A stretch of 64,000 nucleotides of DNA, from the NCBI RefSeq assembly GCF_023517795.1, contig NZ_CP082928.1, forward strand, positions 4,154,001-4,218,000. The letters are read 5' to 3'. The translations under genes were made by a program, and so were the position numbers. Positions 35,699-46,209 of the stretch are shown here, piece after piece; the first letter of the stretch is position 1, and each line of letters opens with the position of its first letter. This DNA is from Pseudomonas fulva. Its GTDB lineage: Bacteria > Pseudomonadota > Gammaproteobacteria > Pseudomonadales > Pseudomonadaceae. Below the pieces are notes generated by a model. It worked only from the letters and a program-made list of their open reading frames with translations, searched no databases and was not told where the DNA came from.

Positions 35699-36730
35699 AT
35701 GGCCGAGTTGAAGCTTTACAAAGTCGTATCAGCTCTGCCTCAGACCCTGGAGGCGGACTCGATCTATCTGGTCCGCGCCGGGGATGGCTTCGATCTGTAC
35801 ACCACCAACCATGGCGGCACGATCATCAGCTACAAGGCCAACTACCAACCGAAGCACGCCAACCTGACCTCGCTGGCGGGGCTGACGGGGTCGGCGAACA
35901 AGATGTTCTACTTCACGGCCGAGAGCGCTATGGCGCTTGCCGACCTCACGGTGTTCGGGCGGCTGCTCAACGCGGCGGCGGATGCGCCGGCTGCACGCTC
36001 CACCCTGGGCCTGGGAACGGCTGCAATTCGAAACGTGGGCACCGGTGGTTTTGATCTGGTAGAGCGCCAGGCCCTAGGAACCGCAGCGTACTTGCCTGTA
36101 CAGGCAGGTAGATTCGTTTCCAGCCTCACTCAAACTGCCGTCGCGTTGGAGGGCTCTTTCGGCTTCGGAGGCCAGCCCGGCTTCATGGGTACCAACCCAA
36201 CCATGGAGACCATCTTAGAGAACCACGGTATCTCGAAGATGCTCAGGATCGAAGACAACACCGTCGGGTATTACTCCTACTGCCCACTGTTACATGCCGG
36301 CGGCTCTGATACCTGGTGGCAGTTGCAAGTGCACTATCTCACCGGCGCTGTGCAAGTTGCTTACGGGATCAACAAGACCCGCAATGGCCGTGTGCAGGTG
36401 ATCACTGAAATCAGCGAGGAGTTTGGAACCAACGCCAACGGCGATTTCTGGCGCTTCACTGATGGCCGCCTGGAGATGATCAGGCCCGTGACCATTTCCG
36501 CGACTGCAGGAGCCTATGGTGAGACTAACGTCCAGCTCCCTGCGGTGAGGTCGTCGGCCTACCGGGCGGTCATCCTTGCCACGGTGGCGGGCGTCGGCAG
36601 CAGCGAAAGCTATGACGTGCTGAAGCTGCAGGCTGACTTCCTCGCTGGGGATACCGTCAAGTTGCGTTGGAAGTTCTCGGTAACCCAGAGCTATGTCGTC
36701 TGGATCTCAGTAAAAGGACGCTGGAAATGA
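35699..36730 (+). CDS. Tail fibre protein, receptor-binding candidate
   Basis: A protein of 343 residues, the last large tail gene and therefore the likely host-recognition fibre. The N-terminus (AELKLYKVVSALPQTLEADSIYLVR) parallels the preceding gene. The middle has fibre-type repeats (LLNAAADAPAARSTLGLGTAA) and the C-terminus is a beta-rich tip domain. The next gene overlaps its end by four bases. Which receptor it binds cannot be judged. Confidence 0.68.
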   Translation: MAELKLYKVVSALPQTLEADSIYLVRAGDGFDLYTTNHGGTIISYKANYQPKHANLTSLAGLTGSANKMFYFTAESAMALADLTVFGRLLNAAADAPAARSTLGLGTAAIRNVGTGGFDLVERQALGTAAYLPVQAGRFVSSLTQTAVALEGSFGFGGQPGFMGTNPTMETILENHGISKMLRIEDNTVGYYSYCPLLHAGGSDTWWQLQVHYLTGAVQVAYGINKTRNGRVQVITEISEEFGTNANGDFWRFTDGRLEMIRPVTISATAGAYGETNVQLPAVRSSAYRAVILATVAGVGSSESYDVLKLQADFLAGDTVKLRWKFSVTQSYVVWISVKGRWK

Positions 36731-37074
36731 TTATCCACCTATCACCTGTCCGCAGTGATGAGGCGTTGCCGACCCTGTCGGTGGCCGGGGACGTGCTGAC
36801 GTTGAACGGGGAGGCCTTTGACTTCAGCCCGCTGCCCGAGGGTGCGAGCTTGCCTGCAGTCGCAGTGGGCTCTGGCTGGTTTGTTGGTGAGGTTGAGCGG
36901 CATGCTGGAGAGCTGCACGTCACGCTGAAGCTTCCGCATGGGCGCAGTCCGTCGCGGGCGGTGGCTTTTCCCGACGCGCTGGTGGCCTCTGATGGAGGTC
37001 CGATCGCGCTGCCGTTCGACCCGGCCGTCGATGACGAGCAGGGCAGCACTCAGGAGGTTGCCAATGGGCATTGA
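36727..37074 (+). CDS. Small fibre-associated protein (115 aa)
   Basis: An unrecognised 115-residue protein with a beta-rich pattern (LPTLSVAGDVLTLNGEAFDF, GSGWFVGEVERHAGELHVTL). Similar small proteins with this start and tryptophan-glycine core lie after fibre genes in many Pseudomonas phages, as I recall, perhaps as fibre chaperones. It is coupled to both neighbours by overlaps. Confidence 0.55.
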   Translation: MIIHLSPVRSDEALPTLSVAGDVLTLNGEAFDFSPLPEGASLPAVAVGSGWFVGEVERHAGELHVTLKLPHGRSPSRAVAFPDALVASDGGPIALPFDPAVDDEQGSTQEVANGH

Positions 37075-37396
37075 TTTTTCACAGGTGGTCACCTCCGAGG
37101 ATAAGGCTTATGCCGCTGCTGAGGCTGAGCGTTCTGCATTCAAAGTCGAGCGCGCGGCGCAGGTGCGTCGTATCTCTGTGACGACTGAAGCTGGGCGGTG
37201 CTTCGATGGTGACGAGATCAGCCAGGGCCGTATGGCTCGCGCCATTCTTGCGCTCGATGCAACAGGGCCTGGGGCGACTGTGCGCTGGGTGCTGCACGAC
37301 AACACTGCCGTCGACGTCGGTGCGCCTGAGCTGCGAGAAGCGCTCGCGCTCGCCGGCCAGGCGCAGGCCGATCTATGGGTGCAGCCGCAAGGCTGA
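37064..37396 (+). CDS. Small tail-fibre-region protein (DUF4376-like)
   Basis: A protein of 110 residues from ATG 37064, with GGAGG before it. The helical start (SEDKAYAAAEAERSAFKVERAAQVRRISV) and ISQGRMARAILALDATG pattern match proteins annotated as DUF4376 or tail fibre assembly in related phages, as I recall. It overlaps the preceding gene by eleven bases. It likely helps fold or attach the fibre. Confidence 0.58.
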   Translation: MGIDFSQVVTSEDKAYAAAEAERSAFKVERAAQVRRISVTTEAGRCFDGDEISQGRMARAILALDATGPGATVRWVLHDNTAVDVGAPELREALALAGQAQADLWVQPQG

Positions 37397-37458
37397 TCAC
37401 CGTCCATTTCAAAGCAGCCCGCCACCGTGCGGGCTTTTTCATGCCTGGAGAAAACCCT

Positions 37459-38001
37459 ATGGCTCGACTCACTGCAAAAGAAGCGGGCGGCGCGAACGTG
37501 CTCGCCTTTCTGGATATGCTCGCCTGGAGCGAGGGCACTGACCACCCTAATCAGCGCAGTAACGATGACGGTTACGATGTACTCGTCGGCGGCCAGCTGT
37601 TCACAGACTACAGCAAGCACCCGCGCATCTCGGTATCGCTGCCGCGCTACGGCATCAAGTCCACCGCTGCCGGCCGCTACCAGTTCCTGGCCCGCACCTG
37701 GGACGCGATCGTCACGAACTACGGCTTTATCGGCCGCTTCATCCCGCGCGCCCAGGATCTGGCTGCCGTGAAGCTGCTCACCGAATGCGGCGCGCTGCCA
37801 CACATCAAGGCCGGCCGCATCAAGGAAGCCATCGCCGCTGCGGCGCCGATCTGGGCCAGCCTACCTGGCGCTGGCTACGGCCAGCGCGAGCACAAACTGG
37901 CCAGCTTGCTGAAGATCTATGCCGACGAACGCACCGCTGAGCCCTGCGACCAGGGCGACCTGCTGGCCATGTTCACCGCGTGTGGTGGGGTGGTCGCATG
38001 A
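37459..38001 (+). CDS. Endolysin, lambda R-type lytic transglycosylase
   Basis: A muralytic enzyme of 180 residues that cleaves the glycan strands of peptidoglycan at lysis. The start of the domain FLDMLAWSEGTDHP carries catalytic Glu25, followed by DGYDVLVGGQLFTDYSKHPR, STAAGRYQFLARTWD and IWASLPGAGYGQREHKL, all closely parallel to lambda R. No signal peptide or SAR anchor is visible, so it depends on the holins. The stop overlaps the Rz-like start as ATGA. Confidence 0.95.
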   Translation: MARLTAKEAGGANVLAFLDMLAWSEGTDHPNQRSNDDGYDVLVGGQLFTDYSKHPRISVSLPRYGIKSTAAGRYQFLARTWDAIVTNYGFIGRFIPRAQDLAAVKLLTECGALPHIKAGRIKEAIAAAAPIWASLPGAGYGQREHKLASLLKIYADERTAEPCDQGDLLAMFTACGGVVA

Positions 38002-38468
38002 TCCCGGTCCAGTACCAGCTGGTCGCCAAGACGGTCGGCGTGCTGCTGCTCATGGCCGCCGCTGCCGGTGTCGTGTGGTGGGGCATGGCTCCGCGTATCG
38101 CTATCGAGGATCAGCGAGCGGGCAGGGCAGAGCAGCAGCTGGCCGATGCCCAGGCCATGATCGAGCTGCAGGCCGGCGTTCTCGCCCAGCAGCACCACCA
38201 GCTCGGCCAGCTCGCCGACGTCGACCGCCGCATCCAGCAGCTTGGCCAGACCATCAACCGCAACCAGGCCGCGCAGTCGGCTGCCCTCGAGGAGCTCAAA
38301 CGCAATGATCAAGCCGTGGCTGTATATCTGTCTGGTGCTGTCCCTGGCGCTGTTGGCCAGCTGTACGCGCGACCCGAAACCACCGACCCCGCCGCCTACC
38401 GCGGCACGCATGGAGTGCAGCCTGGTACCGTGCCGGCTGCCGGGCCGCCAGGCGCTGGTGGTGAATGA
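37998..38468 (+). CDS. Inner-membrane spanin (Rz-like)
   Basis: A 156-residue type II membrane protein: an N-terminal helix (LVAKTVGVLLLMAAAAGVVWWG) and a long periplasmic coiled coil rich in Gln, Ala and Leu (about residues 35-110), then a proline-rich end. With the outer-membrane lipoprotein encoded inside its gene it would fuse the two membranes in the last step of lysis. Start is coupled to the endolysin stop. Confidence 0.88.
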   Translation: MIPVQYQLVAKTVGVLLLMAAAAGVVWWGMAPRIAIEDQRAGRAEQQLADAQAMIELQAGVLAQQHHQLGQLADVDRRIQQLGQTINRNQAAQSAALEELKRNDQAVAVYLSGAVPGAVGQLYARPETTDPAAYRGTHGVQPGTVPAAGPPGAGGE

Positions 38469-38571
38469 CGACTGGCGGCGCGCCGTCGACGAGCTGGAGT
38501 ACGAGCTGGGGCAATGCAGCACCCAGGTGATTGCGTGCATCGAGCGTCAGGCCGCGCAGCGGCCTAAGTGA
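38305..38571 (+). CDS. Outer-membrane spanin lipoprotein (Rz1-like)
   Basis: An 88-residue lipoprotein starting inside the Rz gene in another frame and running 103 bases past its end. The signal peptide is PWLYICLVLSLALLAS followed by the lipobox cysteine at residue 20 (LLASC). Next come TRDPKPPTPPP (proline-rich, as in Rz1) and a charged C-terminus. GAGG lies before the ATG. The nested layout is a strong sign of the Rz/Rz1 pair. Confidence 0.88.
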   Translation: MIKPWLYICLVLSLALLASCTRDPKPPTPPPTAARMECSLVPCRLPGRQALVVNDDWRRAVDELEYELGQCSTQVIACIERQAAQRPK

Positions 38572-38689
38572 AAGAGAGGCGCCGAGCCCAGGTGCGTCAA
38601 CACCCAGGCTCGACACCTGACCCGCAGAACGTCCCTGCAAGCCAAGCCATGGCCTCCGCCTCGTGCACGAAGCGCGGCGAGCCTAGCAC

Positions 38690-38705
38690 CTGTTTATCTA
38701 TACAG
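38690..38705 (+). promoter_or_regulatory. LexA box before adenine methylase gene
   Basis: CTGTTTATCTATACAG keeps CTG-N10-CAG and differs from CTGTATATATATACAG at two positions. It lies 16 bases before the ATG at 38722, where a LexA dimer would block transcription, so the following gene may be SOS-induced. Confidence 0.72.
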
Positions 38706-38721
38706 TAAAGGTTTGCACCTA

Positions 38722-39515
38722 ATGACCAGCCCTATCATCCCTTGGATGGGCGGCAAGCGCCGTCTTGCCGATCGCCTTATCCCTCTGTTCCCGCCCCACG
38801 AATGCTACGTCGAAGTGTTCGCCGGTGGCGCGGCCTTGTTCTTCATGCGCCCTCAACCGGCCCCGGTCGAGGTGCTGAACGACATCAATGGCGACCTGGT
38901 GTCGCTGTATCGCGTTGTCCAAAACCACCTCGAGGAATTCGTACGCCAGTTCAAATGGGCGCTGACCAGTCGCCAGCTATTCGAGTGGCACAAGCTCGCC
39001 CGGCCGGAGACGCTGACCGACATCCAGCGCGCCGCGCGCTTCTTCTACCTGCAGCACAACGCCTTCGGCGGCAAGGTGTCCGGGCAGACGTTCGGCACGG
39101 CCACCACCGCCCCAGGCTTCAGCGTGATGCGCATCGAGGAGAATCTCACGGCGGCCTGGCAGCGCCTGGCCGGCACCTACGTCGAGAACCTGGGCTGGCT
39201 TGAATGCGCCGAGCGCTACGACCGCGCTCACACCTTTCACTACATGGATCCGCCGTACTGGAAAACCGAGGGCTACGGCGTGGCTTCCCGTTCGAGGAGT
39301 ACGAGCGGATGGCCGACTTCATGCGGCGCTGCAAGGGGAAGGTGATGGTGAGCATCAACGATCATCCCGACATCCGCCGGGCGTTCGAGGGCTTTCACAT
39401 GGAGCAGCTGGATATTCGGTATAGCTGTACGAACCAGCGGCAGGGGCTGGCCGAGAAGACCGGCGAGCTGGTGATCATGAACTGGGAGCCGGCGGCCTTG
39501 CAGGGGTTGTTCTAG
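38722..39515 (+). pseudogene. Dam-type DNA adenine methylase, frameshifted
   Basis: A D12-class adenine methyltransferase. The AdoMet motif PWMGGKRRLADRL (residues 7-19), FAGGAALFF and the catalytic MDPPYWKTEGYG are present in the first frame (38722 to stop 39345). At about 39281-39285 the expected GYGV-x-FPFEEYERMADF continues in the +2-frame reading (to 39515), so one base appears to be missing. The C-terminal third (CKGKVMVSINDHPDIRRAF, EKTGELVIMNWEP) is intact in that frame. Without correction the protein ends with about 20 wrong residues and probably lacks activity. A sequencing error would give the same picture. Confidence 0.82.
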
Positions 39516-39638
39516 ATTGAAAATCAGCGGCCACTACTCAAGGGGCAGAGGCTCGGGTCATGCCTGAATCGCTTAGGTTCATCGACCTTTTTGTAATCCA
39601 ATAAACCATTTATCATGAATGCTTCGTAAGGAGGCGTT

Positions 39639-40721
39639 ATGAGAAAGGTTTCTAAGGCGTCACTGGATTGGGCGCGTCGAGCGATTCGCTCGGATAGAGC
39701 CCGCCGCTCTCGGCAAGCGGGGGTTAGGCGTAGTAGACGTTACAGGAAGCAAAGGTATCGAAAGTTTTCGAGCATCCGGCTTCGTCTCCCATCCATTATC
39801 AGTCTTTCTGAGGGGGAGTTCCGTAGCCAAGTTATCCAATTCATTCGCAAAATGAAAGATCGGGTAGCATCTCCCGAAGTTTCCAATGTGATCATCGATT
39901 TTTCAAGAATAACTATGCTGCATCCTTGCGGTACGCTTTTATTTGTTGCTGAGCTAGAAAGGCTTTTCGAATCGCCTTTTGCTCAAAAAAAACTGAGCGC
40001 TATTTATCCTGTTGATCGCAACGTTGAACAAATGTTTCAGCACATAAAGTTGCTTGAGCGATTAGGGTTGCCACCGAGGATAAGTGAGATTAATGCGAGT
40101 AATGTTTTGCCCTGGCTGTACGCGTCTGGGCACGAAGGCGATTTAGATTCAATTGCTGAAAAACTGCCGAAGATATTGACCGAAGGCGGGAATATGGAGA
40201 TACGGCTCGCTCTAATGAGCGGAATGGCAGAGGCGGTTGCGAACTCCTCAGAGCATGCTTATTTGAAGCAGTCGAAAACTCCAGTGCCAGGATCTGTTCC
40301 TCTGAAATGGTGGCTGTTTGCACGGCAATCAGGCGATGACGTTTCTGTTGTGATCTGTGACCTTGGCTTAGGAATACCTGGAACATTAGAGGCTAACTGG
40401 CGTGAGGAGTTAGGATCCTTATTGAAAACTAGGTCAGGTTTAAAGCGTAAAGATCATAAAATGATTGAGCTTGCCCTTACGGTAGGTAAAACCAGCACAA
40501 ATAAAGTAAATCGCGGTAAAGGTCTCAAGGATATCTTGAAGGTTGTGAGAGATAAAAAGGTAGGGGAGATATGTATTTTCAGTAATCGAGGCGTCTACTC
40601 TCTAGATAGCCCTAATGATTCCCTGGTTTCGCGTGACGAGCGAAACAGTATTAATGGAACTATTGTTCAGTGGAAGATTCCAATCGAAGCCCTTGGGTTC
40701 GAGGTCTCTGAGAGATTATGA
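39639..40721 (+). CDS. STAS-like region fused to GHKL (HATPase) domain, cassette gene 1
   Basis: A protein of 360 residues. Residues 1-45 are extremely basic (Arg/Lys-rich, Tyr-interrupted). A STAS-like strand-helix unit (NVIIDFSRITMLHPCGTLLF, 83-102) follows. The C-terminal half is an ATP-binding GHKL domain: N-box GMAEAVANSSEH (195-206, Glu198, Asn202, His206), G1 DLGLGIP (241-247) and G2 NRGKGL (291-296). There is no phospho-acceptor His domain, so it resembles RsbW/SpoIIAB-type kinases or GHKL ATPases more than sensor kinases. GGAGG precedes the ATG. The DNA is markedly AT-richer than the phage. It overlaps gene 2 as ATGA. Function unknown. Confidence 0.8.
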   Translation: MRKVSKASLDWARRAIRSDRARRSRQAGVRRSRRYRKQRYRKFSSIRLRLPSIISLSEGEFRSQVIQFIRKMKDRVASPEVSNVIIDFSRITMLHPCGTLLFVAELERLFESPFAQKKLSAIYPVDRNVEQMFQHIKLLERLGLPPRISEINASNVLPWLYASGHEGDLDSIAEKLPKILTEGGNMEIRLALMSGMAEAVANSSEHAYLKQSKTPVPGSVPLKWWLFARQSGDDVSVVICDLGLGIPGTLEANWREELGSLLKTRSGLKRKDHKMIELALTVGKTSTNKVNRGKGLKDILKVVRDKKVGEICIFSNRGVYSLDSPNDSLVSRDERNSINGTIVQWKIPIEALGFEVSERL

Positions 40722-41038
40722 CCAGCATGACAATACATGTAGCAAAAGAATTTACGAAGCTGCCCTGCGTTCGTCTTCGAGATGATGGTAAAAAGTCGGG
40801 TGAGGAGTTTCGTGAGGATATATTGCTTCCTGCTCTAAAGCGGAACGATAAGGTTGTGGTCGATCTGAACGGCGTATTAACCTTGGGTTCTTCTTTTTTG
40901 GAAGAGACTTTTGGAGGCTTAGTTCGTAAAGGCTACTTTACAGCCAAAGAGCTTAAATCTAGGTTGGAGATAAAGTTTCAGGTCGATAGTTATGTTAAAG
41001 AATGCTGGGACTATGTCGGCGCCGCTCGCAAGGAATAA
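40718..41038 (+). CDS. STAS-like DUF4325 protein, cassette gene 2
   Basis: A small protein of 106 residues: EEFREDILLPALKRNDKVVVDLNGVLTLGSSFLEETFGGLVRKGYF has the pattern of DUF4325, a STAS-related domain in which a buried strand (VVVDLNGV) is followed by a SSFLEETF helix-cap. STAS proteins are phosphorylated or bound by RsbW-like kinases. The SSF/S position would be the place of modification by analogy; this is inference. It is coupled to gene 1 by ATGA and followed by gene 3 after two bases. Confidence 0.75.
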   Translation: MTSMTIHVAKEFTKLPCVRLRDDGKKSGEEFREDILLPALKRNDKVVVDLNGVLTLGSSFLEETFGGLVRKGYFTAKELKSRLEIKFQVDSYVKECWDYVGAARKE

Positions 41039-41040
41039 AT

Positions 41041-41523
41041 ATGGAGTTCAAGGATTGGGCAGAGTTGGCGCGTTGGGTTGTGCCACTGTTGGTATTAATA
41101 TTGGGTTGGTCGGTAGTTTCGCGTGGTAATGATCGGCGCGAGACCCGGAAAGAAATCAGGCAATTCATTGATCGTACAATTGTCTCTGTAGAGAACATTC
41201 GAAATAATACAATCGAATGTCTGACTCAAGCCGATGGGCCTAAGTCTAAACGCTTAGAGCTTTCGATTGATCCGGAGTTGCTGCAGATGGAAAAGTCTCT
41301 ATCTCTGCTTAATTTGAAGTGTGCGGGAAAAGCTGTCGATGGACGTGCTTTGAGGCAAGCTGTTTCCGATAATGGTGTTTATCGAGTTGCTAATCGCGAC
41401 AAGCTAAGTATGGATCATCGCGTTTTAGCTAATATTAATCTTAACGCTGCCGAGTTAATTGCAAGTCTGGAAGAGGCTTACCGAGATACATATCAAAAGG
41501 AGCGATTCTTTCGAATTGGCTGA
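41041..41523 (+). CDS. Single-pass membrane protein, cassette gene 3
   Basis: A protein of 160 residues from ATG 41041 with AAGGA upstream. One N-terminal membrane helix (LARWVVPLLVLILGWSVVS) is followed by a mostly helical charged domain (about residues 30-155) without cysteines forming a metal site or obvious catalytic motif. It is transcribed with genes 1 and 2 and is the likely effector or membrane sensor of the set. I recognise no family. The AT-rich base composition matches the other two genes. Confidence 0.72.
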   Translation: MEFKDWAELARWVVPLLVLILGWSVVSRGNDRRETRKEIRQFIDRTIVSVENIRNNTIECLTQADGPKSKRLELSIDPELLQMEKSLSLLNLKCAGKAVDGRALRQAVSDNGVYRVANRDKLSMDHRVLANINLNAAELIASLEEAYRDTYQKERFFRIG

Positions 41524-41572
41524 TCGGTTTAACTGTTCGCTCGTTTGTTGTAAGGTGCTCGGCCATTGTGAG

Positions 41573-42268
41573 CTACAATAGCGGGCCGTCAATCTGCACT
41601 ATCAGTTCCGGCCCTTTGTTACTCACGTTGCCTACCGCCTTGTCCACTGGATACCACACAAAATGATCAGCCGGAGTGTCGTGGTGCCTGGCCAGATCCT
41701 CCGCCCGCTCGGACAGCAAGCCCGGCTCCAGCCATTCTCTTGCCACATCTGGCGGCAGCACGACAGGTCGCCTGTCGTGTATGTCGACCATCCCCTGATC
41801 GCTGGCTGCGGTGATGATAGCGAAGCCGCCAGCGCCTTCCTCTCCGTCCTGCGGCACGTCGGCAATGCCGGCGAAGAACGCCGGGGCGCCGCCTTTCAGC
41901 CGGATGAAATACGGCTGCTTGACCTTGGGATTGTCCGGGTCTTTCTTCCATTCGTACCAGCCATCCGCCGGAATGATCACGCGCCCCTTCTTCCAGATCG
42001 CGCCCCAGAACCGACTGGTGGCGGCGGTCTCGATGCGCGCGTTGATCGCGGGCGGCCGCTTGCCGTCCGCCCAGTGCGGGGCGTAGCCCCATTGGGTTCG
42101 GGTCGCATGCGTGCCCAAATCATCTTGATGCAACAGCAGGACGCGGGACTGTGGCGCCACGTTGTAGCGGGCCAGGGGCTCGTTCGACCAATCGCCCTCG
42201 AGCAGACCCAGCTGTAGAGCCTTCGCGTACTCGTCGACAGTTCGGTACTGCGTGAATCGTCCGCACAT
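41573..42268 (-). CDS. SRAP-family abasic-site protein (YedK/HMCES-like)
   Basis: A protein of 231 residues that would form a thiazolidine crosslink with abasic sites in single-stranded DNA. Met1 is followed by Cys2, the catalytic cysteine; INARIETA carries the conserved Asn and Glu; IPADGWYEWKK and the active-site His in VDIHDRRPVVL are all present. It is transcribed divergently from the UmuDC-type genes, so the LexA box at 42332-42347 may control both. It is a phage-carried DNA damage protein. Confidence 0.9.
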   Translation of the reverse strand: MCGRFTQYRTVDEYAKALQLGLLEGDWSNEPLARYNVAPQSRVLLLHQDDLGTHATRTQWGYAPHWADGKRPPAINARIETAATSRFWGAIWKKGRVIIPADGWYEWKKDPDNPKVKQPYFIRLKGGAPAFFAGIADVPQDGEEGAGGFAIITAASDQGMVDIHDRRPVVLPPDVAREWLEPGLLSERAEDLARHHDTPADHFVWYPVDKAVGNVSNKGPELIVQIDGPLL

Positions 42269-42324
42269 GAAACCCTCCGGTCGTCAGTTGGCCATCATGA
42301 GTCTTTGACCGCGGCTCGGGTCAT

Positions 42325-42353
42325 TTGGTATCTGTATATGCATACAGTATTAT
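42325..42353 (+). promoter_or_regulatory. SOS promoter with LexA box before umuD-like gene
   Basis: The LexA box CTGTATATGCATACAG (42332-42347) fills the spacer between -35 TTGGTA (42325-42330) and -10 TATTAT (42348-42353), 17 bp apart. A bound LexA would occlude the promoter, so umuDC-like expression should follow DNA damage. SRAP on the opposite strand may share this control. Confidence 0.88.
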
Positions 42354-42368
42354 TCTCAGGTCTCTCTT

Positions 42369-42806
42369 ATGGGCAACGCAACCATCCTCGGCCCAGTGGG
42401 CAGCTCATCCTCCGAGCTGCCTTTTTTTTCCTACCGGGTGCCGGCCGGCTTCCCCAGTCCCGCGCAGGATCACCTCGAGCAGAAAATCTCTCTGGACGAA
42501 GTGCTGGGCATCCACGCGCCTCAGACATACCTGGTGCGGGTTGATGGCGACAGCATGACCGGGGTGGGTATCTTCGACGGTGACGTGGTGGTGGTCGATA
42601 AGTCGCTGGATGCGGTGTCGGGCGACGTGGTAATCGGAGCTGTGAACAGCGAGCCGGTGCTGAAGACCTACATTCGCCGAGGCCAGCAGGTGATTCTCCA
42701 ATCCGAGAATCCGAAATACCCGCCGCGGTACATCCTCGAGGGCGACGAGTTCGAGGTGTGGGGCGTGGTTACCAGCGGCCTGCGGCGGTTGCGCTGCCAT
42801 GCTTGA
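42369..42806 (+). CDS. UmuD-like S24 peptidase (polymerase V subunit)
   Basis: A protein of 145 residues that self-cleaves after RecA contact and then joins the UmuC-like polymerase. The cleavage site is Ala26-Gly27 in VPAGFPSP, the nucleophile Ser62 in GDSMTG and the base Lys99 in VLKTY, all at the same spacing as E. coli UmuD. The start at 42369 has a weak ribosome site (CTCTCTT before it). The gene overlaps umuC-like by eight bases. Confidence 0.92.
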   Translation: MGNATILGPVGSSSSELPFFSYRVPAGFPSPAQDHLEQKISLDEVLGIHAPQTYLVRVDGDSMTGVGIFDGDVVVVDKSLDAVSGDVVIGAVNSEPVLKTYIRRGQQVILQSENPKYPPRYILEGDEFEVWGVVTSGLRRLRCHA

Positions 42807-44073
42807 GCAGGTTGTGGCGCTGATCGACTGCAACTCCTTCTACTGCAGCTGCGAGCGTGTATTCCGGCCTGATCTGCGGCGGGTGCCACTGGTGGTGCTA
42901 AGCAACAACGACGGCTGCGTGATCGCCAGGTCGGCCGATGCCAAGCCGTTCGTGAAAATGGGCGCGCCGTATTTCCAGATCAAGAACGAGCTTCGCCGCC
43001 ACGGCATCGTGCCGTTCAGCAGCAACTATGCGCTGTACGGCGATATGAGCGAGCGGGTCATGACAGTGATTGAGGGCATGGCCCCGGCGGTCGAGGTGTA
43101 CAGCATCGACGAAGCCTTCGCCGACTTGACCGGCATGCCAGGTGACCTCGAGCAGCTCGGCCGCGAGATCCGGGCCCGGGTGCTCAAGTGGACGGGTATC
43201 CCCACCGGCGTCGGAATCGCCGGCACGAAGACCCTGGCCAAGCTGGCAAATCACGCTGCGAAGAAGTGGCAGACGCGAACTGGCGGCGTGGTCGACCTGC
43301 GCGACCCTGATCGGCGCGACAAGGTATTGAGGGTGCTGCCGGTGAGTGACGTGTGGGGTGTTGGCCGGCGAATGACCGAACACCTCAACGCCCAAGGCAT
43401 CAGGACGGCCTGGGATCTGGCCCAGGCTGACGCCTGGACGCTTCGCAAGCAGTTCAGCGTGGTGATCGAGAAGACAGCGCGCGAGCTGCGCGGGACGCCA
43501 TGCCTGACGCTGGATGAGGCAGCACCGCCAAAGAAAGAGATCTGCTCAAGCCGGATGTTCGGCAAGCGCCTGCAGGACATCGAGTCGATTCGCCAGGCCG
43601 TGGCGACCTACACCGCCACCGCGTGCGAGAAGCTGCGGGCGCAGCAGTCTGTGTGCCGGCAGATCCGCGTCGGCGTGCGCACGGGCATGCACAATCCAGA
43701 GGAAGCGAAGTACGCCAAGGGCGTGACGCTGCAGCTGCCCTGGGCGACTGACGACACCCGCATGATCACTCATTATGCGATGCACGCCTTGGAGCAGGCC
43801 TACCGAGCCGGTTACTGGTACAGCAAGGCCGAGGTGATGCTGCTCGACCTCTGCCAGCGAACCGAGATCACCGGCGACCTATTTGCGCCTCAGCAGTCAG
43901 CCGAATCTACGCGCGTAATGGCGGTGCTGGACGAGATCAACGCCAGGTGGGGCAGGGGAACGCTACGGCCGGGACGGGTGGAGCTTCAGCCGGAGTGGGG
44001 TATGCGGCGGGAGATGATGAGCCAGAGCTTTACGACGAAGCTTGATCAGTTGTGGACGATTGGCGGTAAGTAG
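42799..44073 (+). CDS. UmuC-like Y-family DNA polymerase V catalytic subunit
   Basis: A translesion polymerase of 424 residues. Metal ligands are Asp10 (ALIDCNSFY) and Asp104-Glu105 (YSIDEAF). GIPTGVGIAGTKTLAKLAN is the thumb helix-hairpin-helix region, and DVWGVGRRMTEHL a second DNA-binding hairpin. The C-terminus MMSQSFTTKLDQLWTI is typical of UmuC. As a prophage-encoded RulB-type polymerase it would raise damage-induced mutagenesis. It is the last phage gene before the attachment region. Confidence 0.93.
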   Translation: MLEQVVALIDCNSFYCSCERVFRPDLRRVPLVVLSNNDGCVIARSADAKPFVKMGAPYFQIKNELRRHGIVPFSSNYALYGDMSERVMTVIEGMAPAVEVYSIDEAFADLTGMPGDLEQLGREIRARVLKWTGIPTGVGIAGTKTLAKLANHAAKKWQTRTGGVVDLRDPDRRDKVLRVLPVSDVWGVGRRMTEHLNAQGIRTAWDLAQADAWTLRKQFSVVIEKTARELRGTPCLTLDEAAPPKKEICSSRMFGKRLQDIESIRQAVATYTATACEKLRAQQSVCRQIRVGVRTGMHNPEEAKYAKGVTLQLPWATDDTRMITHYAMHALEQAYRAGYWYSKAEVMLLDLCQRTEITGDLFAPQQSAESTRVMAVLDEINARWGRGTLRPGRVELQPEWGMRREMMSQSFTTKLDQLWTIGGK

Positions 44074-44185
44074 CCAAGCTCACGAGCTTGTACAATGCCG
44101 TCGGAGGCGGCATGGAGCTACCGTTCGTCGGAAGCTGGTGAGCGCGGTGTGGGGCTGATTTTGCGTGAATCTCAGTTGCCGCTAA

Positions 44186-44206
44186 TGCGGGTATTGGTGC
44201 GGGTAT
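44186..44206. repeat. TGCGGGTAT direct repeats, candidate attachment-region arm sites
   Basis: TGCGGGTAT occurs twice, 12 bp apart (44186-44194 and 44198-44206), in the non-coding stretch between the umuC-like gene and dinB. Paired repeats of this kind are common near attachment cores of tyrosine integrases. Two hairpins (AAGCTC/GAGCTT at 44077-44090, ATGCCG/CGGCAT at 44096-44114) lie a little upstream. The core itself cannot be found without the left end. Confidence 0.5.
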
Positions 44207-44244
44207 CAAATCATTTGTTGTTTATGAAAGCCCAATAAAATCAA

Positions 44245-45321
44245 ATGGATAAGAAGCAAAGGAAGATCGTCCACATCGATTGCGATGCCTTCTATGCGTC
44301 GGTCGAGATGCGCGACAACCCGGCGCTGGCCGACAAACCCATGGCCGTTGGCGGCTCGGCCGATCGGCGCGGGGTGATCGCCACCTGCAACTACGAGGCG
44401 CGGGCCTACGGTGTGCGCTCGGCCATGGCCTCGGGGCATGCGCTGAAGCTGTGCCCGGACCTGCTGATCGTCAAACCACGTTTCGACGTCTACCGCGCGG
44501 TGTCCCGGGAGATCCACGGAATCTTTCGCGACTACACCGACCAGATCGAGCCGTTGTCCCTGGACGAGGCCTTTCTCGACGTTTCCCATTGCGAGCACTT
44601 CGGTGGCAGCGCCACGCGTATCGCCCAGGATATCCGCCGACGGGTGTCCAGTGACCTGCATATCACCGTGTCCGCCGGGGTGGCGCCCAACAAGTTCCTG
44701 GCCAAGATCGCCAGCGACTGGCGCAAGCCCAACGGCATCTTCGTGATCACCCCGGATCAGGTCGAGGATTTCGTGGCCGAGCTGCCGGTCAACAAGCTGC
44801 ACGGGGTCGGCAAGGTCACCGCGGACAAGCTCAGCCGCCTGGGCATACGTACCTGCCGTGATCTGCGCGAGTGGAACAAGCTGCGCCTGGTGCGCGAGTT
44901 CGGCAGCTTTGGCGAGCGGCTGTGGAGCCTGGCCCATGGCATCGACGAGCGGGTGGTGCAGACCGACAGCCGCCGCCAGTCGATGAGCGTGGAGAACACC
45001 TACGATCAGGATCTGCCGGACCTGCAGGCCTGCCTGGCGCAGCTGCCGGCCTTGCTGGAAGAACTGGAGCGACGCATGACGCGCCTGGATGGCAGCTATC
45101 GGGCGGGCAAGCCCTTTGTCAAGATCAAGTTCCACGACTTCACCCAGACCACCCTGGAACAGGCCGGTGCGGCGCGGGACCTGGAAAGCTATCGCCTGTT
45201 GCTGACCAGTGCCCATGCCCGGGGCAATCGGCCCGTGCGGTTACTCGGTGTTGGCGTGCGGTTGCTGGATTTGCGCGGCAAGCACGAACAGCTGGATCTG
45301 TTCACACCGTCCGAACGGTAG
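44245..45321 (+). CDS. dinB: DNA polymerase IV
   Basis: A Y-family translesion polymerase of 358 residues, the chromosomal counterpart to the phage polymerase just upstream. Asp12 (HIDCDAFYASVE) and Asp107-Glu108 (LSLDEAF) bind the metals; GVAPNKFLAKIASDW and KLHGVGKVTADKL are the thumb and hairpin motifs. The C-terminal QLDLF tail fits the beta-clamp binding motif. No ribosome site is strong before the ATG and no LexA box is visible in the 170 bases upstream, possibly because the prophage separated it from its own promoter. Confidence 0.95.
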   Translation: MDKKQRKIVHIDCDAFYASVEMRDNPALADKPMAVGGSADRRGVIATCNYEARAYGVRSAMASGHALKLCPDLLIVKPRFDVYRAVSREIHGIFRDYTDQIEPLSLDEAFLDVSHCEHFGGSATRIAQDIRRRVSSDLHITVSAGVAPNKFLAKIASDWRKPNGIFVITPDQVEDFVAELPVNKLHGVGKVTADKLSRLGIRTCRDLREWNKLRLVREFGSFGERLWSLAHGIDERVVQTDSRRQSMSVENTYDQDLPDLQACLAQLPALLEELERRMTRLDGSYRAGKPFVKIKFHDFTQTTLEQAGAARDLESYRLLLTSAHARGNRPVRLLGVGVRLLDLRGKHEQLDLFTPSER

Positions 45322-45327
45322 AACGAG

Positions 45328-45363
45328 GACGGCCAGGTGGGCTGGGCAGCCCGCCTGGCCGTC
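45328..45363. terminator. Bidirectional hairpin between dinB and META gene
   Basis: GACGGCCAGG and GGGCTG pair with CAGCCC and CCTGGCCGTC to form a stem of about 17 bp with a two-base loop. It lies between convergent genes, so it likely ends both transcripts, though the T-run is missing. Confidence 0.68.
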
Positions 45364-45370
45364 GGGCAGC

Positions 45371-45772
45371 CTACTCGTCAGGCCACAGGCGGATCGGTTT
45401 GCCGCTGGCCGGCCACAGGCGCAGTTGCTCGATGGGCGATATATCCCAGCGCTCGATGGTCGTCAGGCTCTGCAGAAAGCGGTTTTCCTGTTCCATCAGT
45501 GCCGGCGCGCACAGTTTGCGGGTGCTGCCGGCGTTACCGAAGGTCAGCTTGTCGCCGTCACGCTGATAGCTGGCGAACCAGTGGTTGCAGCCGGCATTGC
45601 CGTAGGCGCGGCCGTCTTCGCCAAGGATGATGGTCAGATGGCTGTTGTCGATCAGCGGTCGCTCGCCTATCCATTCCACGCGGTAGGTGCGCTCGTTTTC
45701 CAGCTGCACGGGTTTTGCCGCGCAGCCAGCCAGGGCTGCAGCGAGCAGACCAAGGGCGAGAAGCGGTTTCAT
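45371..45772 (-). CDS. META/HslJ-domain lipoprotein
   Basis: A 133-residue envelope lipoprotein: signal PLLALGLLAAALAGC with lipobox LAGC (Cys17). The META-type domain shows YRVEWIGERPL, then DGRAYGNAGCNHWFASYQ, the family's N-G-C-N signature, and LCAPALMEQENRFLQSL. HslJ proteins are linked to heat or antibiotic tolerance in the outer membrane; the precise function is unknown. It shares an A with the stop of the upstream gene (TGATG). Confidence 0.85.
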   Translation of the reverse strand: MKPLLALGLLAAALAGCAAKPVQLENERTYRVEWIGERPLIDNSHLTIILGEDGRAYGNAGCNHWFASYQRDGDKLTFGNAGSTRKLCAPALMEQENRFLQSLTTIERWDISPIEQLRLWPASGKPIRLWPDE

Positions 45773-46209
45773 CAGGCCTCCTTTTTAATACACGCAGGGC
45801 ACAAGTGCTTGTCCTGCTGTTTGCGCCAGCCCAGCTCGGCAAGGCGGGCGTCGGCGGCTGGCGTCTGGGCTTTTTTGCCCAGTGCACTGTCGACCGCGAA
45901 TTCGAAGTCCAGTTGCCTGGCGCAGCTGTCGCAGGTGACCTGCCAGTTGAAGATCGACAGCTCGGTGAACGCCGGCCCGTGGGCGACGGCGACCCATTGG
46001 CCGGGCGGGTTGATCAGGTGACGGACCTTGTCGACCTGCAGGCGCATGCTCAGGTCGCGGCTGCCCTTGAGGCTGACGACCAGGGTGTCGCTGCCCTTGA
46101 TCGAACCGCCGTTGCCGGTGACCTGGTAGCGGCCGGGAGCCAGGGCGCGGCACTCGATCAGGGTGTGTTCGGGGTTGAGCAGGTTGTAGCGAAAATCGTG
46201 TTCGGCCAT
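45772..46209 (-). CDS. Conserved hypothetical protein with zinc-ribbon-like cysteines
   Basis: A 145-residue protein starting at 46209, with GGAGG ahead of the ATG. The middle contains VTCDSCARQLDF and the end HLCPACIKKEA, together four cysteines in CxxC pairs that could hold zinc. It is otherwise beta-rich and soluble. I recognise it as a common Pseudomonas protein without a known role. It is transcribed with the lipoprotein. Confidence 0.7.
   Translation of the reverse strand: MAEHDFRYNLLNPEHTLIECRALAPGRYQVTGNGGSIKGSDTLVVSLKGSRDLSMRLQVDKVRHLINPPGQWVAVAHGPAFTELSIFNWQVTCDSCARQLDFEFAVDSALGKKAQTPAADARLAELGWRKQQDKHLCPACIKKEA

Follow-up and report, generated by a model that had tools for sequence, protein, structure and literature searches.

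The 64,000-nucleotide stretch of the Pseudomonas fulva genome analysed here (contig NZ_CP082928.1, positions 4,154,001 to 4,218,000; hereafter the window) carries a cassette of three genes, designated A, B and C, on the + strand at 39639-41523. Gene A (39639-40721), preceded by the Shine-Dalgarno sequence TAAGGAGG read at 39627-39634, encodes a VapK-like protein of 360 amino acids (aa) that is predicted to consist of a basic N-terminal helix, a STAS domain and a GHKL domain resembling RsbW and SpoIIAB. Gene B (40718-41038) encodes a 106-aa DUF4325/STAS-like protein, a putative kinase substrate that resembles VapS, and gene C (41041-41523) encodes a 160-aa protein that is predicted to span the membrane once and to carry a helical bundle in the cytosol, a putative effector. 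A check of the open reading frames (ORFs) of the window found the coordinates and sizes given in a preliminary description, made from the sequence alone, to be exact: A and B are joined by an ATGA overlap (40718), and the ATG of C lies two bases past the stop codon of B; an alternative in-frame ATG at 41002 would give C 173 aa instead of 160. The same description had judged the cassette by eye to be AT-rich, and its G+C content is indeed 45.1%, versus 63.8% for the window, 63.2% for the flank at 36001-39500 and 62.5% for the flank at 41573-44073.

The A protein matches PHROGs family phrog_3364, of unknown function, with E 1e-48, and matches the Pfam family HATPase_c_2 weakly, with E 0.0096, below the family cut-off. 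Despite the weak Pfam score, a complete set of GHKL motifs is apparent from an alignment and a structural model. In an alignment of 45 proteins chosen from distinct loci (shorter A proteins of 300-317 aa, for example at loci L071, L073, L090 and L152, standing outside this set), residues H206, W224, D241, G243, G293, G295, S315, G340 and W345 are kept in every row, as are Glu198 and Asn202, which the preliminary description had proposed for point mutation; G245 of the G1 box is kept in 42 of the 45. We assign the invariant columns to boxes N, G1, G2 and G3 of a GHKL kinase; the HAY ending is as in RsbW and SpoIIAB. By the alignment, the N box (E198..N202..H206-A-Y208) is located at 40230-40262, the G1 box (D241-L-G-L-G-I-P247) at 40359-40379 and the G2 box (R292-G-K-G-L-K-D298) at 40512-40532.

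An AlphaFold2 model of A, built from 42 rows with a mean predicted local distance difference test score (pLDDT) of 85.8, begins with one helix (residues 6-39), which is followed by an alpha/beta part resembling STAS and by a GHKL part. The PDB entry that it matches best is SpoIIAB (1til, E 1.8e-4), and the ten matches at E <= 1e-3 include CheA kinase domains; a profile of A by sequence alone reaches SpoIIAB and RsbW at E 0.15-0.35 only. Taken together, the motifs and the model indicate that A is likely a STAS-GHKL kinase of the SpoIIAB/RsbW type, with predicted kinase activity. An ordinary sensor histidine kinase was considered and rejected because the model has no dimerisation domain of that kind and the partner protein is STAS-like. 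The first 56 aa of A include 21 lysine or arginine and two aspartate or glutamate residues, and the net charge of the first 50 residues ranges from +3 to +19 across the 45 aligned proteins; the charge count and the model helix place the basic N-terminal helix at about aa 1-43 (39639-39767). No helix-turn-helix (HTH) family was found in A with Pfam, and in the model the long helix leads into the STAS part.

The B protein matches Pfam DUF4325 at residues 27-86 (E 6.7e-15) and no other domain. All of the 57 B proteins aligned have Ser59 and 51 of them have Ser58, making the two codons (40889-40894) candidates for the phospho-acceptor. Pfam detected no winged HTH after the STAS domain in the 106 aa of B, and the possibility that B is a transcription factor was rejected, as it is too short. 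By homology, B is probably the substrate of the kinase A. The pairing of an RsbW/SpoIIAB-type kinase with a STAS partner, as proposed in the preliminary description, is supported by the boxes, the model and the DUF4325 match.

The C protein belongs to no Pfam family up to E 1, nor does it obtain a meaningful family score in searches of the Pfam, PADLOC and PHROGs type. Hydropathy and charge predict a transmembrane part at about aa 9-27 (41065-41121), followed by a stretch rich in arginine and lysine. An N-terminal hydropathy of at least 1.4 was found in 46 of 60 C proteins, 3 of 60 A proteins, 2 of 60 B proteins and 158 of 766 background ORFs of 130-220 aa, the last being mechanical ORFs of which many are not genes. 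In 53 of the 60 C proteins the charge is more positive after the hydrophobic stretch than before it, and therefore the C-terminal part is expected to be cytosolic, where B could reach it. A model of C (33 rows, mean pLDDT 93.5) is almost entirely helical, with a continuous helix (residues 3-62) that would run from the membrane into a helical bundle.

The three genes travel as a unit, of which C is the least conserved. The arrangement A-B-C is found in 60 of 63 distinct A ORFs, where distinct means differing in the last 200 residues, so that the counts, which include some close relatives, are of sequences and not of independent events, and where C is counted as an ORF of at least 100 aa that starts between -130 and +150 of the end of B. 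This linkage rules out that A, B and C are chance ORFs, and it is the conserved co-occurrence, near-constant with respect to the membrane protein, for which a survey of gene neighbourhoods had been suggested. The other three of the 63 are the front half of a split A (L004), a fusion of A and B followed by C (L076) and a pair without C (L091). A profile of C matches 49 of the 60 C ORFs at E <= 1e-3 (11 of the 49 come from the loci used to build the profile), and ten of the other 11 have an N-terminal hydropathy of at least 1.3. Across 57 loci, the evolutionary distances of A and B, A and C, and B and C are correlated with coefficients of 0.83, 0.85 and 0.71, none of which was reached in 2000 permutations.

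The carriers of the trio are phages, plasmids and prophages of Pseudomonas, Vibrio, Acinetobacter, Escherichia coli, Leptospira and others; no housekeeping pathway was seen to house the homologues among the loci examined. All 22 loci on viral contigs have A, B and a match to the C profile, four of them (L015-L017, L019) having been used for profile building and two (L025, L026) being near copies of Marinobacter phage AS1, whose trio (L014) is the one match among 50,697 phage records. On genome contigs, A and B are present at all 17 loci (ten of Pseudomonas and the rest of Mariprofundus, Variovorax, Pseudoalteromonas, two Alphaproteobacteria, Sulfurospirillum and Arcobacter), with a match to the C profile at 15 and a hydrophobic ORF in the position of C at the other two. 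A match to A at E <= 1e-19 was found in 23 of 398 Pseudomonas genomes, and a compact trio in one more (G338); 137 genomes have a match at E <= 1e-3, and the counts are confined to the 23 and G338, the remaining matches covering positions 182-317 of A only, in ORFs of 357-809 aa. In a sample of 398 genomes of the phylum, 12 have A at E <= 1e-3, nine of them together with B. Three ORFs of 717-747 aa from the genus search (L078, L079) and the phylum search (L093) have no match to the B profile and are presumably CheA. One branch of the family matches 24 of 5,426 complete E. coli genomes at the DNA level, over part of the query, and so the system is testable in standard laboratory strains.

The closest precedent for the cassette is VapKSC/CapKS (Chambers et al., EMBO J, June 2026; PMC13373217). 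The vapKSC operon encodes a kinase with STAS and GHKL domains, a STAS protein and a PIN toxin resembling VapC, which together constitute a three-gene anti-phage system giving about 2-log protection against phage Bas42; VapS is the antitoxin, and with a phosphomimetic residue at Ser48 it no longer holds the toxin, while CapK is activated by single-stranded DNA (ssDNA) and aromatic residues are located at the ssDNA site (F54 of VapK, W68 of CapK) (PMC13373217). The words 'transmembrane', 'membrane protein' and 'DUF4325' do not occur in the main text of that article. A survey for DUF4325, with matches in 29 of 398 genomes, identified three loci of the vapKSC type (L104, L105, L107). PDB entry 9z7o, 'Escherichia VapS', is matched by a profile built from the S proteins of all three at E 4e-26 and by that of L104 alone at E 7.7e-14; the S protein of L104 belongs by Pfam to DUF4325, the family of B, and each third gene has a PIN match, which exceeds the Pfam cut-off in two cases and falls short of it in one. 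Against profiles made from these three sequences each, A matches VapK over 248 columns (probability score 97.5, E 6e-12) and B matches VapS (probability score 92.3, E 5.7e-7). By these profile matches, the core formed by A and B is homologous to VapK and VapS, and the third gene differs.

The cassette is thus like VapKSC in being a three-gene operon with a STAS-GHKL kinase, a small STAS protein with a conserved serine or threonine, and a third gene, but unlike it in that the third gene encodes a single-pass membrane helical protein without PIN instead of a PIN ribonuclease, and in that A has an additional, strongly basic N-terminal helix. It shares with CapK-CapS a STAS-GHKL kinase and its STAS substrate, but no HTH was seen on A, B lacks the winged HTH, and the window has no immune operon behind the pair. 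With SpoIIAB-SpoIIAA and RsbW-RsbV it has in common the predicted kinase fold of A and the conserved serine of the STAS-like B, whereas the extra STAS domain and basic helix of A and the near-constant membrane third gene set it apart, as does the fact that no sigma factor is encoded among the flanking genes of the window that were examined, although such a target may lie farther away. The same order of genes is listed for Francisella phage vB_FhiM_KIRK (PMC7924643), in which Fhv_0046-0048, beside a CI-type repressor, encode proteins of 293 aa (23% identical to a protein of Marinobacter phage AS1), 112 aa (DUF4325) and 125 aa (transmembrane); they are given as hypothetical proteins, and the likeness rests on the descriptions in the table, not on sequence. 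The genes of the trio thus look to be already in print, in that table, and a function for them does not. No article treating the trio as a system was found in titles and abstracts of open-licence articles, and an earlier description may exist. The preliminary description knew of no system with this exact set, but it missed the close precedent; the kinase-STAS core is already known, and the difference lies in the membrane third gene.

The reading that we consider moderately probable is that the three genes form a mobile switch of the VapKSC type, worked by phosphorylation, in which a membrane effector replaces the PIN ribonuclease, carried by phages for an exclusion or abortive role. At rest, unphosphorylated B would bind C (or A) and keep C harmless, a restraint suggested because of the position of the genes and the precedent of VapKSC; because the cytosolic bundle of C sits on a membrane anchor, B would be given a place to bind. 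A stress signal from an incoming phage or from DNA damage would switch on the kinase A; the signal would most likely be a nucleic acid, bound by the basic N-terminal helix and the groove between the STAS and GHKL parts, a trigger proposed because of that helix and the activation of CapK by ssDNA. A would then phosphorylate B on Ser59 (or Ser58), and B would release C to act on the inner membrane, stopping either growth or the incoming phage.

The release of a toxin by a kinase that phosphorylates its STAS antitoxin was first reported in 2026, for VapKSC (PMC13373217). A second type of effector on the kinase-STAS core would make the principle general and define a new family of membrane effectors: together with VapKSC, the kinase-STAS pair would be a plug-in trigger that can be fitted with different killers, an RNase or a membrane protein. 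It would also explain prophage genes now annotated as 'ATP-binding protein', 'STAS-like domain-containing protein' and 'hypothetical protein'. A wider proposal, for which we consider the balance to be even, is that these genes represent an unnamed type of immunity that is widespread on phages and plasmids: its membrane-acting effector would be freed not through proteolysis of an antitoxin but by a serine kinase working through a STAS protein.

The location of relatives is consistent with a role in exclusion. At five P2-like loci (L020, L021, L022, L023 and L028), whose A proteins are 41-89% identical to one another, the trio has a replication gene of the gpA type (assigned in L028 by tblastn alone, at 34% identity) on one side and a gpQ-type portal gene on the other. 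P2-like phages have a hotspot for anti-phage systems between gpA and gpQ, the region in which old and tin lie (PMC9122126). The five relatives have this slot in common with old, tin and the other systems of the hotspot, but the proteins are different, and the copy in the window is in another type of phage and in another slot, behind dam.

Several observations weigh against a phage-carried membrane effector released by phosphorylation of B. PADLOC has no model for A, B or C. A PADLOC scan covering 280 of 379 neighbour proteins (two sets, proteins of up to 900 aa) gave, among the matches listed (25 families per set), mainly methyltransferases, along with DinG (two proteins), PD-Lambda-5_B (three) and single matches to MzaA, mad2, BrxH, PsyrT, DpdF, DEDDh and DRT; a neighbour of the L049 trio, the first of the second set, matches PDC-M68B. 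Such defence-type matches are only scattered, and they are plain counts without a control set; the remaining neighbours belong to phages (integrase, repressor, terminase, portal) or, in the first set, are ordinary chromosomal genes such as those for tRNA synthetases and MutS. Carriage by mobile elements and, in the five P2-like relatives, the site in an exclusion hotspot thus support the earlier interpretation, and the PADLOC results and the neighbourhoods count against it. Within B, Ser48 of VapS aligns without gaps with Ser58, and the invariant residue is Ser59. When only distant pairs (1494 of 1596) are considered, the correlations fall to 0.62 (A-B), 0.32 (A-C) and 0.24 (B-C); the L091 pair lacks C, the ORF in the position of C at L087 is not hydrophobic, and two of ten plasmids opened (L147, L149) have B without a recognisable A. 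The alignments of C have one nearly invariant column and no invariant one, no recognised toxin motif was found in C, and its model has no fold match at E <= 1e-3 in the PDB or BFVD. Of the homology and structure searches that had been recommended for all three proteins, those with A (SpoIIAB 1til, the VapK profile) and B (DUF4325, VapS) were successful and those with C were not. Overall, the earlier interpretation is partly supported.

The nearest solved look-alikes of C, at the level of noise, are helical bundles of the sensor, receptor and vinculin types, a likeness as compatible with a sensor as with an effector. C might accordingly detect phage adsorption, the entry of DNA or membrane stress and signal through B to A, with the output elsewhere, for example in the action of the basic domain of A on nucleic acid. 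We judge this arrangement rather unlikely, but it would suit a helical bundle on one membrane helix (the sensor domains of NarQ, QseE, Tar and Tsr are among the noise-level look-alikes), the low conservation of C relative to A and B, which is frequent in sensors, and the basic N-terminal helix of A, which could be the output.

The setting of the cassette as part of a prophage is confirmed by PHROGs, which matched nine of ten window proteins submitted; eight of the nine matches (7407-39342) are to a repressor, primase, terminase, portal, maturation protease, tape measure, endolysin and DNA methyltransferase. A single match to A at E <= 1e-3 is present in the source genome (5.44 Mb, one contig). 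The gene order in the window is dam (frameshifted), the cassette, a SRAP gene on the opposite strand, and umuD-like, umuC-like and dinB-like genes. Seven genomes (L138-L144), taken from the 17 of 57 that match the dam stretch (the source genome included), were compared with 36501-46000 of the window: similarity, at 80-82% identity, starts at 38563-38620 and stops at 39485-39515, the end of dam. Behind dam, L138 and L144 have umuDC-like genes similar to those of the window, L139 has a SRAP-like stretch as in the window, L140 has chromosomal genes including one that reads as recA, and the remaining relatives carry other genes. Because what follows dam differs among relatives, the cassette is cargo of a variable slot, one that adjoins SOS-type genes.

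Another alternative is a regulator of lysogenic conversion, in which a partner switch of A and B would control a sigma factor or repressor of the host or phage, with C as a membrane anchor. The resemblance of A to the anti-sigma kinases SpoIIAB and RsbW, weak by sequence and evident by fold in the model, would fit such a role, as would the SRAP and umuDC-like genes beside the window cassette. So would the site of the two E. coli copies that were opened, in which profiles confirmed all three genes: both are flanked by a DUF977 gene and by hokD in the early part of a lambdoid prophage. Nevertheless, Pfam found no DNA-binding domain in B or C, the flanking window genes examined include no sigma factor, the dispersal of the trio over unlike phages and plasmids in different slots argues against a fixed phage target, and the core is related to VapKS, which regulates a toxin; a conversion regulator is, on balance, very improbable.

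Of 13 plasmid records with B, ten were opened and eight carry A-B-C (L001-L004, L150-L153), the trio of L150 being from Leptospira, a spirochaete. The presence of the trio on plasmids of 14-127 kb (L001, L003, L004, L150-L152), with other toxin-antitoxin genes nearby in L001, L003 and L004, might suggest an addiction module, a toxin-antitoxin system for stable maintenance of plasmids or prophages with no specific role against phages. A three-part kinase switch exceeds what addiction needs, however, many copies are in phages and prophages, which integrate stably, and the P2-like copies occupy an exclusion hotspot, all of which makes addiction an improbable explanation.

Some natural variants depart from the usual form of the trio. 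In compact forms at L115:866-2216, L153:1980-3261 and L077:681-2007, a kinase of 174-186 aa (174 aa in the L153 plasmid), too short for a STAS domain and a basic N-terminus, is accompanied by a DUF4325 protein and a hydrophobic membrane protein C; because even the compact kinases are found with B and a hydrophobic C, these three components look like the minimal set. At L076:680-2058 (minus strand), A and B are naturally fused in a 312-aa ORF followed by C, and in an Acinetobacter plasmid (L004:3242-6350) gene A is interrupted by an IS3-like element (ISAba14). The DUF4325 genes at L149:2453-3175 and L147:4001-4321 have no adjacent recognisable kinase, and the next gene in L149 encodes a long hydrophobic stretch. 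A vapKSC-like operon by annotation (ATP-binding protein, STAS-like protein and PIN domain protein) is located behind an HTH regulator on plasmid P5 of Deinococcus gobiensis (L148:2968-4814). Five ORFs of about 334-352 aa on a DUF4325 match (L098, L100, L101, L110, L113) have, by eye, an HTH-like start and a GHKL motif, and are possibly one-piece kinase-STAS regulators.

In the window, the dam-type methyltransferase gene (38713-39515) is broken by a frameshift into two ORFs, one at 38713-39345 and the other, in a different frame, at 39204-39515. The dam ORF is unbroken (267-269 aa) in five of the seven relatives compared and lies inside a 308-aa ORF in L142, and in L138 it is absent from the list of ORFs, masked by a longer ORF on the opposite strand. 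The SRAP, umuD-like, umuC-like and dinB-like genes are adjacent to one another at 41573-45321, directly after the cassette.

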